Shown here: piece after piece, positions 1 to 1,319 of the stretch
How the letters are laid out: the number at the start of each line of letters is the position of its first letter
Position numbering within the stretch: position 1 is the first letter of the stretch
Assembly (NCBI GenBank): GCA_016929695.1
Contig: JAFGII010000054.1
Coordinates: 1-64,000 of the forward strand
DNA from: Ignavibacteria bacterium
Lineage (GTDB): Bacteria > Bacteroidota > Ignavibacteria > Tepidaquicellales > Tepidaquicellaceae
Length of the DNA: 64,000 nucleotides
Direction: 5' to 3'
Notes under the pieces: generated by a model
Databases searched by the model: none
Told to the model about the DNA's origin: nothing
The model's input: the letters and a program-made list of their open reading frames with translations, nothing else
Made by a program: the position numbers and the translations under genes

Positions 1-120
1 AAGCCCGTTACAGGATATGAAATACCGTTTGAAGCATCCGGATTATCGACAGGTGTTTATTTCTACAGAATGTCTGCAGGTGACATAAGTATTACTAAGA
101 AAATGATTCTTCAAAAATAA
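1..120 (+). CDS. 3' end of a secreted protein with a type IX secretion (T9SS) C-terminal sorting tail (partial)
   Basis: The reading frame is open from base 1 to a TAA at 118-120 and gives 39 residues. It contains the pattern LSTGVYFYRMSAG followed by a basic KKMILQK end. This is typical of the type A sorting domain that sends proteins through the outer membrane by the type IX system in Bacteroidota and Ignavibacteria. The functional part of the protein lies outside the window, so its activity cannot be named. A hairpin terminator follows directly. Confidence 0.8.
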   Translation, partial: KPVTGYEIPFEASGLSTGVYFYRMSAGDISITKKMILQK

Positions 121-121
121 A

Positions 122-170
122 AGATAAGTTTCTTAATAAAATAAGGGGACTGTTAGTAACAGTCCCCTTT
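122..170 (+). terminator. Terminator hairpin, copy 1 of a 49-bp perfect direct repeat
   Basis: Arms AAGGGGACTGTTA and TAACAGTCCCCTT form a nearly loop-free GC-rich palindrome just after the secreted-protein stop codon. All 49 bases recur identically at 752-800. In this copy the T tract is only three bases long before the insert sequence begins at 171, so its 3' tail has been interrupted. Confidence 0.75.
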
Positions 171-751
171 CCTGTTTTGCGCATTGGGACACCCTAGAAA
201 CTTTCTCTTATGACCTGCATTAATAATTGTTAATTTTCGTCCATTTTTAATACTTTTCTTACTCCATTTTTTTACGGAAGTTTATTTAAAAAACGTTAAA
301 TCCTGTCTTTTGATATTTTTATAATTTGATACCACTGAAGATAATCTATATTTTTTATTTTGCTCCCCGGATTTACTAATCGGGTTATGACTAAGTCTCG
401 AAATAAATTTTTCTTTTTTTGTCCGTATCATGCATAACCAAATATTCGAGCTAAGAAAAGCTCGGGTCCTGTAACTTCTATTTGTGAATTTGAAATATTC
501 TCTATAAACTCTTTTAAGAATGCACCTTTCATCACTGAAAAAACTTAACGGAATTTCATTTTTTTTCAACTTTATATTGTCCTTATGGTTTTGAGATTAT
601 TTGAACGATAAAACTTTCAGTTTTTCTTCTGTTTACTTAAAAAAAACATTAAAAATAGCCTCGGGACACCCAAAAATTTGATGAAATTATTGTTAACTAA
701 CTGTAAAACATTAATTTATTTTTTTGACTTTTCACACATGCGCAAAACAGG
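171..751. mobile_element. 581-bp insert with 14-bp perfect terminal inverted repeats, inside a duplicated terminator
   Basis: The segment begins CCTGTTTTGCGCAT (171-184) and ends with its exact reverse complement (738-751). It is bounded on both sides by the identical 49-bp terminator repeat. Two direct copies of GGGACACCC lie inside (186-194 and 663-671). The only sizeable frame (282-569, minus) does not resemble a transposase I recognise. It could be a non-autonomous MITE-like element or an eroded insertion sequence. A 49-bp duplication is much longer than usual target duplications, so mechanism and family are uncertain. Confidence 0.55.
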
Positions 752-800
752 AGATAAGTTTCTTAATAAAATAAGGGGACTGTTAGTAACAGTCCCCTTT
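752..800. terminator. Terminator hairpin, copy 2 (intact T tract); serves the leuCD-like operon from the other side
   Basis: Same 49 bases as 122-170. Here the hairpin is followed on plus by TTTTATTTT, and on minus by a U-rich ATTTTATT stretch. It can therefore stop the minus-strand operon ending at 822 as well as plus-strand transcription. A bidirectional terminator between convergent genes is the likely ancestral state. Confidence 0.75.
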
Positions 801-821: not shown

Positions 822-1319
822 TTACTTTTTTAACTGTTCGAGCATTTTCTTTCGTGTATAAGGAATAAGACCTCCGGCATCAATAATTGCTTGACGTGCT
901 GGAGGAAGGGGTTCAATGCCAAAAGATTTTCCTGTCGTTTTATTAATTACTAAATTATCTTTTATTTCAATGTCATCGTCCACGTTTGCTTCGATATCTG
1001 GGCATACTATCAAATTCAATCCGAGATTGATTGCATTTTGCATAAAAATTCTTGCAAAATCTTTGGCTATTACATTAATACCATGACCTTTAATGCATGA
1101 AGCAGCTTGTTCTCTTGAAGAACCGCAACCAAAATTATTATCAGCAACAATAAAACTTCCTTCAGGATAATTTTTGTCATTAAGGTTTTTGTTGAAATCC
1201 ACATAATCTGCAAACGCATATTGCGGTGTTTCAATCGGCAATACTGTTGCCATATATCTACCGGGATATACAACATCCGTCGATATATCATCACCAAATT
1301 TATATATTACTTTTGGCAT
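822..1319 (-). CDS. leuD: LeuD-like small subunit of a 3-isopropylmalate/homoaconitate-type dehydratase
   Basis: At 165 residues this is the short archaeal-type small (swivel) subunit of the aconitase superfamily. It pairs with the LeuC-like large subunit encoded one base upstream. GCGSSREQAA at 64-73 is the conserved substrate-contact segment. The specificity loop after PGR reads YMAT (residues 22-25). From memory, characterised isopropylmalate isomerases carry YLVY or YLVM and homoaconitases YLRT, so the substrate is not settled by this loop. It is the last gene of a five-gene minus operon that lacks leuA. The leuD name reflects family, not proven leucine synthesis. Confidence 0.85.
   Translation of the reverse strand: MPKVIYKFGDDISTDVVYPGRYMATVLPIETPQYAFADYVDFNKNLNDKNYPEGSFIVADNNFGCGSSREQAASCIKGHGINVIAKDFARIFMQNAINLGLNLIVCPDIEANVDDDIEIKDNLVINKTTGKSFGIEPLPPARQAIIDAGGLIPYTRKKMLEQLKK

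Follow-up and report, generated by a model that had tools for sequence, protein, structure and literature searches.

The window, by which we mean the whole 64,000-nucleotide stretch of DNA that was analysed, shares its first base with its contig, and the feature described here (122–800) begins 121 bases from this edge of the assembly. Two stretches of 49 bases, which are identical at 49 of 49 positions and whose neighbouring outer bases differ, enclose an insert of 581 bp that opens with CCTGTTTTGCGCAT and closes with the exact reverse complement of this sequence, perfect pairing of the two ends stopping at 14 bp. This architecture had been reported in a preliminary description of the DNA and was reproduced base for base. 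It lies between two genes, and its parts are arranged as follows.

1–120, plus strand: 3′-terminal part of a gene that the contig edge truncates, its frame read by hand from the sequence; stop codon at 118–120; convergent with the leuD-like gene
122–170, no strand: copy 1 of the 49-bp repeat, read as a target-site duplication; 49/49 against 752–800; holds the hairpin 143–169; plus-strand T tract shortened by the insert
171–751, minus strand (transposase remnant): 581 bp, very probably a non-autonomous, deleted IS1634-family element; 14-bp inverted ends; ends common to full-length IS1634 elements; remnants of a transposase gene
171–184, plus strand: terminal inverted repeat on the 3′ side of the transposase, CCTGTTTTGCGCAT
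738–751, minus strand: terminal inverted repeat on the 5′ side of the transposase
752–800, no strand: copy 2 of the 49-bp repeat, likewise read as a target-site duplication; holds the intact terminator hairpin 773–799
822–1319, minus strand: open reading frame of 165 amino acids, which we take to be a leuD-like gene; convergent towards the insertion; matches of 69–72% identity in three relatives

Since the plus-strand frame ends at 120 and the leuD-like gene at 822, the two neighbours converge, and the insertion thus lies between genes that share a two-way terminator. This terminator-like structure, a hairpin of 12 pairs with a 3-nt loop, is present in each 49-bp repeat. The left junction, at copy 1, reads CCCCTTT followed directly by the CCTG of the element, compared to CCCCTTTTATTTT at copy 2, which bears out the earlier remark that copy 1 loses its T tract at the insert, as far as the plus strand is concerned. 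In the minus direction, the tail ATTTTATTAA is retained by both hairpin copies. For the leuD-like gene, copy 2 still provides a complete terminator, whereas the upstream gene reads into a copy 1 that is devoid of its T tract, copy 2 being the next intact terminator.

A chance origin of the repeat is excluded because only one of 20,000 random position pairs within loci gave a flank repeat of at least 20 bp. The hairpin core has no third site in the 2.78-Mb, 124-contig host genome with up to three mismatches allowed, and the whole insert (171–751) finds no further match in its own genome at E ≤ 0.001. A comparison of the insert to the genomes of relatives returned five short matches of 27–50 bases.

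Transposase remnants and full-length relatives

Three pieces of a transposase gene, numbered below by the amino acids of full-length relatives, and two copies of a subterminal motif were found inside the insert.

187–194, minus strand: subterminal motif GGGTGTCC; begins 24 nt from the element 3′ end and is part of the pattern with which the family was collected
197–256, minus strand: C-terminal transposase remnant, amino acids 489–508; tblastn E 0.04, weak alone but located next to the right end, as expected; one stop
278–544, minus strand: transposase remnant, amino acids 60–148; tblastn E 3e-21, 43% identity to the L041 protein; two in-frame stops
562–630, minus strand: transposase remnant, amino acids 7–29; tblastn E 2.6e-4; one in-frame stop; its frame differs from that of the next piece
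664–671, minus strand: second copy of GGGTGTCC, at element nucleotides 81–88

The order and orientation of the three transposase pieces are correct, and the gap between the pieces that end at amino acid 148 and begin at amino acid 489 amounts to ~340 codons, in agreement with the size difference of ~1.06–1.1 kb. A search of the genome with the IS1634 profile gave a match at 272–421 (E 8e-5, 22 bits, under the cut-off of 100), and Pfam searches with the 36-amino-acid C-terminal fragment and with the open frame 282–569 returned nothing useful.

Relatives of the insert were collected by their ends. The end sequence CCTGTTTTGCG-AT-GGGACACC also occurs near the edge of contig C8 of the same genome and is found with a single mismatch close to two contig edges of genome G313, and an end-like CCTGTATTGCGCAA lies at the edge of the host's contig C1. 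A phylum-wide search for the end pattern was positive in two of 395 genomes, namely the host and G313, with both G313 copies near contig ends. A scan of a species-level genome collection with GGTGTCCCNATNCGNAAAACAGG produced 73 stretches, several of them from the same assembly and 54 with Bacteroidota-type titles (as read from the list); two end patterns had no match in viral contigs. The last 26 bases of contig C8 form a palindrome-like AACTCCGTAGGAGTT-ATGTTAATA just inside the IS1634-type end (L009), and this sequence occurs once more at C72:20658-20683.

Looking back from the collected ends, we found full-length elements of 1639–1676 bp with one open frame of ~500 codons. Seven of these were translated and gave proteins of 506–516 amino acids (L078, which has a 510-codon open frame, was left out as an ATG was found only near its end). 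All four full-length-relative proteins tested matched NF033559, the IS1634 family transposase, with 360–376 bits against a cut-off of 100, and the tested proteins also matched Pfam DDE_Tnp_1. The preliminary description had suggested looking for full-length relatives that encode a transposase; such relatives do exist, and their transposase is of the IS1634 type.

The ends of the window copy (CCTGTTTT-CG, with GGTGTCC inside one end) are identical in full-length members. A start-side copy of GGGTGTCC is present in 22 of 27 elements when at most one mismatch is allowed (21 at nucleotides 67–91 and one at nucleotide 150), including 11 of 11 full-length ones. The element ends, the GGGTGTCC motifs and the decayed transposase pieces place the insert in a family in which full-length members carry an IS1634 transposase gene. 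In L061, L133 and other full-length members, GGGTGTCC stands near both ends in the same orientation and is not inverted (start-side copy at nucleotides 67–91); such a pair would suit an asymmetric arrangement of transposase binding.

At 581 bp, the window copy falls short of the full size of the family (1.5–2.0 kb), and it is thus filed as a deletion derivative rather than as an autonomous member. The profile search detected no IS1634 transposase over the cut-off in the host assembly, so that a source acting in trans was not seen there; one locus of the same genome (L099) reached 35 bits, which is under the cut-off. IS copies tend to drop out of draft assemblies.

Direct repeats, hairpins and the order of events

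The left end was accepted for 27 members of the family, the window copy included, two of which have no right flank because of a contig edge, leaving 25 that could be evaluated. Clear direct repeats flank 12 of the 25. Their lengths are 31 bp (L053), ~40 bp (L045), 49 bp (window), ~54 bp (L087), ~58 bp (L094), 66 bp (L041), 70 bp (L061), ~83 bp (L081), ~90 bp (L054), 111 bp (L028), 159/152 bp (L086) and 183/167 bp (L063). Two more are tentative: a 14-bp repeat in L044, and a 32-bp match at 313–345 in L064, which ends 345 bp out. The remaining 11 (L030, L033, L035, L037, L051, L058, L059, L068, L088, L089 and L091), some of which have short flanks, show no direct repeat; L089, counted here as repeat-free, gives a marginal alignment that scores 26.8 with 900-base flanks and 22.7 with 350-base flanks, the latter compared to a shuffled maximum of 21.7. 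L055 (97 bp, 97%) was struck from the list of repeats, because the repeat extends beyond its supposed left end, which is no true end of an element, and L095, with a doubtful left end, was not counted.

Further copies come from other sources. A full-length copy with a 43/44 bp repeat is present in G007, a genome from the same bacterial family as the host. A search of plasmids covered 124 records, of which 25 were listed and eight of these examined. The finished plasmid records of Persicobacter psychrovividus NBRC 101262 carry two related copies with repeats of 33/33 (L133) and 406/406 bp (L134). The latter, a full-length relative at 1086–2736 of plasmid pPP1, has a perfect 406-bp repeat that opens with a hairpin, and the incomplete gene table of the record shows no feature for it. 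The complete record of Aliarcobacter cryaerophilus plasmid pCNAC48 has a 679/680-bp direct repeat around the copy at 1086–2822 (L135); a large part of a gene annotated as a Crp/Fnr-type regulator lies within this repeat and is now present on either side of the element. Four Rhodococcus plasmid copies display 23 bp, 97 bp (imperfect at the end), 5–7 bp and nothing convincing, respectively, and a Microbacterium plasmid copy displays 5 bp, so that three of the five actinobacterial plasmid copies have only 5–7 bp or nothing convincing.

Because long repeats recur at the element ends in members of the family, the 49-bp repeat is, as judged from the sequences, a target-site duplication. Its length and A-rich boundary agree with the targets of the IS1634 family, which are AT-rich and give duplications of either 5–6 bp or long, variable size. 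We are highly confident that 171–751 derives from an IS1634-family element by internal deletion, is non-autonomous and, on insertion, duplicated a 49-bp target that includes the terminator; it was probably shifted in trans into the convergent gap.

The gene has acquired stops, changed frame and lost ~1.1 kb, whereas the repeats are still identical, and the insertion is therefore probably more recent than the decay of the transposase. The element probably decayed first and was later moved by a transposase supplied in trans. The earlier suggestion of a recent event is upheld insofar as perfect repeats around a decayed element would fit a fairly recent insertion. The leuD-like gene is matched in G002, G006 and G007 and, at 34%, in G004. 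An empty-site allele was not found in G002 and G006, the two relatives with readable DNA downstream of this gene, where the sequence is too different and by eye has nothing in common with the window repeat; in G006, the DNA downstream of the leuD-like gene contains one hairpin of other sequence. The contig of G007 stops 26 bases past the leuD-like match. The preliminary description had held the lack of both other genomic copies and an empty site against a mobile element. Taken literally, both are lacking (the genome has no second full copy, and no empty-site allele was found), and we do not count this against the element, since the missing evidence comes from its relatives at other sites.

Other orders and origins were considered. 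The terminator could have been duplicated by slippage or recombination before the element came or was carried in. Identical repeats alone cannot order the events, and no empty site is known that would speak for or against a terminator-first order; the repeat, however, stops exactly at both ends of the element, and repeats of other sequence and length abut their elements just as exactly at unrelated sites, which makes this order very improbable. The recurrence of the long-repeat architecture at unrelated sites likewise removes the need for the recombination product carrying a terminator along that was the second option of the preliminary description. We regard an artefact of assembly as similarly improbable: the feature is only 121 bases from the contig start, and two further end-like sequences of the host genome are at contig ends (C8 and C1), but the architecture is the family's own and is found in complete plasmid records as well. 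That the insert belongs to IS1202, another family with long duplications (16–28 bp in IS1202-group elements according to PMC10132070), has a negligible likelihood. The transposase profile of its relatives is that of IS1634, and the ISAjo2 group of the IS1202 family is described in the same source with TGT ends and inverted repeats of 24–26 bp, compared to CCTG and 14 bp here. A TnsB-like transposase and TGT ends, the marks of IS1202 membership, are replaced in this family by the IS1634 profile and CCTG ends.

More weight has to be given to the proposal of a target preference for terminator hairpins, which we nevertheless consider unlikely. The hairpin of the window starts one base into the 49-bp repeat, a hairpin also opens the 406-bp duplication of Persicobacter, and hairpins are located within 14 bases of the boundary in L050, L062 and L087. 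Compared to all motif-matched sites, boundary hairpins are enriched (stems of at least 7, 4/75 vs 67/4000, p 0.04; stems of at least 8, 4/75 vs 28/4000, p 0.003), as they are in a looser count (11/74 vs 78/1119 controls). These control sets, however, contain coding DNA. Against non-coding controls, the figures are 4/68 vs 26/628 for stem 7 (p 0.52) and 4/68 vs 16/628 for stem 8 (p 0.12). In a set of 57 sites, from which the window was dropped (flank under 400 bases) and L087 was removed by the coding filter, they are 4/57 vs 55/1209, 2/57 vs 35/1209 (p 0.68) and 2/57 vs 29/1209 for stems 6, 7 and 8, respectively. A repeat of the test that restored the window and used three coding filters gave 3/59 vs 35/1209 for stems of at least 7 (p 0.42), and over nine settings with the window included p ranged from 0.06 to 1.0, with an excess of at most about two-fold that was never significant. 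Furthermore, none of the perfect duplications L028, L041, L053 and L061 has a hairpin at its boundary. Insertions are mostly located outside open frames of at least 80 codons (14/71 are in frames vs 2791/4000 motif-matched controls), as selection alone would give. The preliminary idea of a mobile element that targets terminator palindromes and makes an unusually long duplication thus holds for the mobile element and for the long duplication; for the targeting, the hairpin excess over non-coding DNA is not significant. The terminator is most likely a passenger and not a recognised target, and a modest preference for hairpins is compatible with the small sample.

A boundary motif and the long duplications

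Reading outward from the right end, the first base is an A at 65 of 75 unique sites (background 0.30), followed by a purine at 62 of 75 and by A at 40 and again 40. The left end is the mirror image, with a T as the first base in 23 of 27 cases and a pyrimidine as the second in 26 of 27. These boundary A and T bases belong to the target and not to the element, because the far copies of perfect repeats, which are not joined to the end in question, have them too. Not all boundaries conform: L061 ends in G, L134 in A and L133 in C. Both ends adjoin the same short motif whatever their spacing, a regularity that our literature search did not find in print.

The repeat lengths show no helical phasing (n=11, 23 to 680 bp, two of them actinobacterial), which is compatible with independent joints but is weak as evidence. 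With boundaries anywhere between 23 and 680 bp apart, the two ends seem to locate their motifs separately. We tentatively raise the possibility, to which we give somewhat less than an even chance, that in this branch of IS1634 the two ends pick their target strands independently, each by an outward ARAA-like motif, the duplication being the distance between the motifs (31–680 bp) instead of a stagger fixed by the transposase.

For the window, the following sequence of events can be envisaged. A transposase supplied in trans would carry the element into the convergent gap between the two genes. Each end of the element would then join its own target strand beside a short ARAA-like motif, with the joints 49 bp apart on opposite strands, as the flanks suggest. 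Host DNA synthesis would fill the interval on both sides, giving two 49-bp copies with a two-way terminator in each.

The direct repeats of IS1634 and IS1549 are given as 8–514 bp in PMC2266710, which states that no mechanistic model had been proposed as of 2008 and that the family otherwise makes duplications of 5–6 bp; a 6-bp case within the family appears in PMC8024623. If true, independent choice by the two ends would explain the long, variable repeats that PMC2266710 left without a model. The value of the present locus is that of one member of a large readable set, which comprises dozens of insertions, mostly in Bacteroidota assemblies and several with perfect long duplications. Persicobacter psychrovividus NBRC 101262, with its 33- and 406-bp duplications, is a strain in which the puzzle of IS1634-type long duplications could be tested.

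Comparison with known systems

IS1634 of Mycoplasma mycoides and the IS1634 family (NF033559), which are IS4-like DDE insertion sequences, share with the elements described here the transposase family of the relatives, a C as the first terminal base, a full size of 1.5–2.0 kb and, in some members, long and variable direct repeats (PMC2266710). The window copy differs in its length of 581 bp and in having no working transposase; the relatives found here are mainly from Bacteroidota, and one pair of repeats (680 bp, L135) is above the 8–514 bp range given in PMC2266710. IS1549 of Mycobacterium smegmatis is a member of the same family and, according to the same text, also produces long direct repeats on insertion; it comes from another host phylum, and the likeness drawn here is one of description.

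A parallel to the short size of the insert is provided by non-autonomous, MITE-like elements of bacterial IS, such as the MITE of Cardinium related to ISCca4 (IS982; PMC9769881), a short derivative that has the ends of its parent IS and would be moved in trans. The parent family is a different one, however, and the window element retains recognisable coding remnants and is the sole full copy in its genome. The IS1202 family, as described in PMC10132070, resembles the present family in the longer-than-usual duplications (16–28 bp) of one group but differs in its TnsB-like transposase and in its ends. Set beside these systems, the locus is an ordinary small mobile-element insertion, of an already known kind of element.
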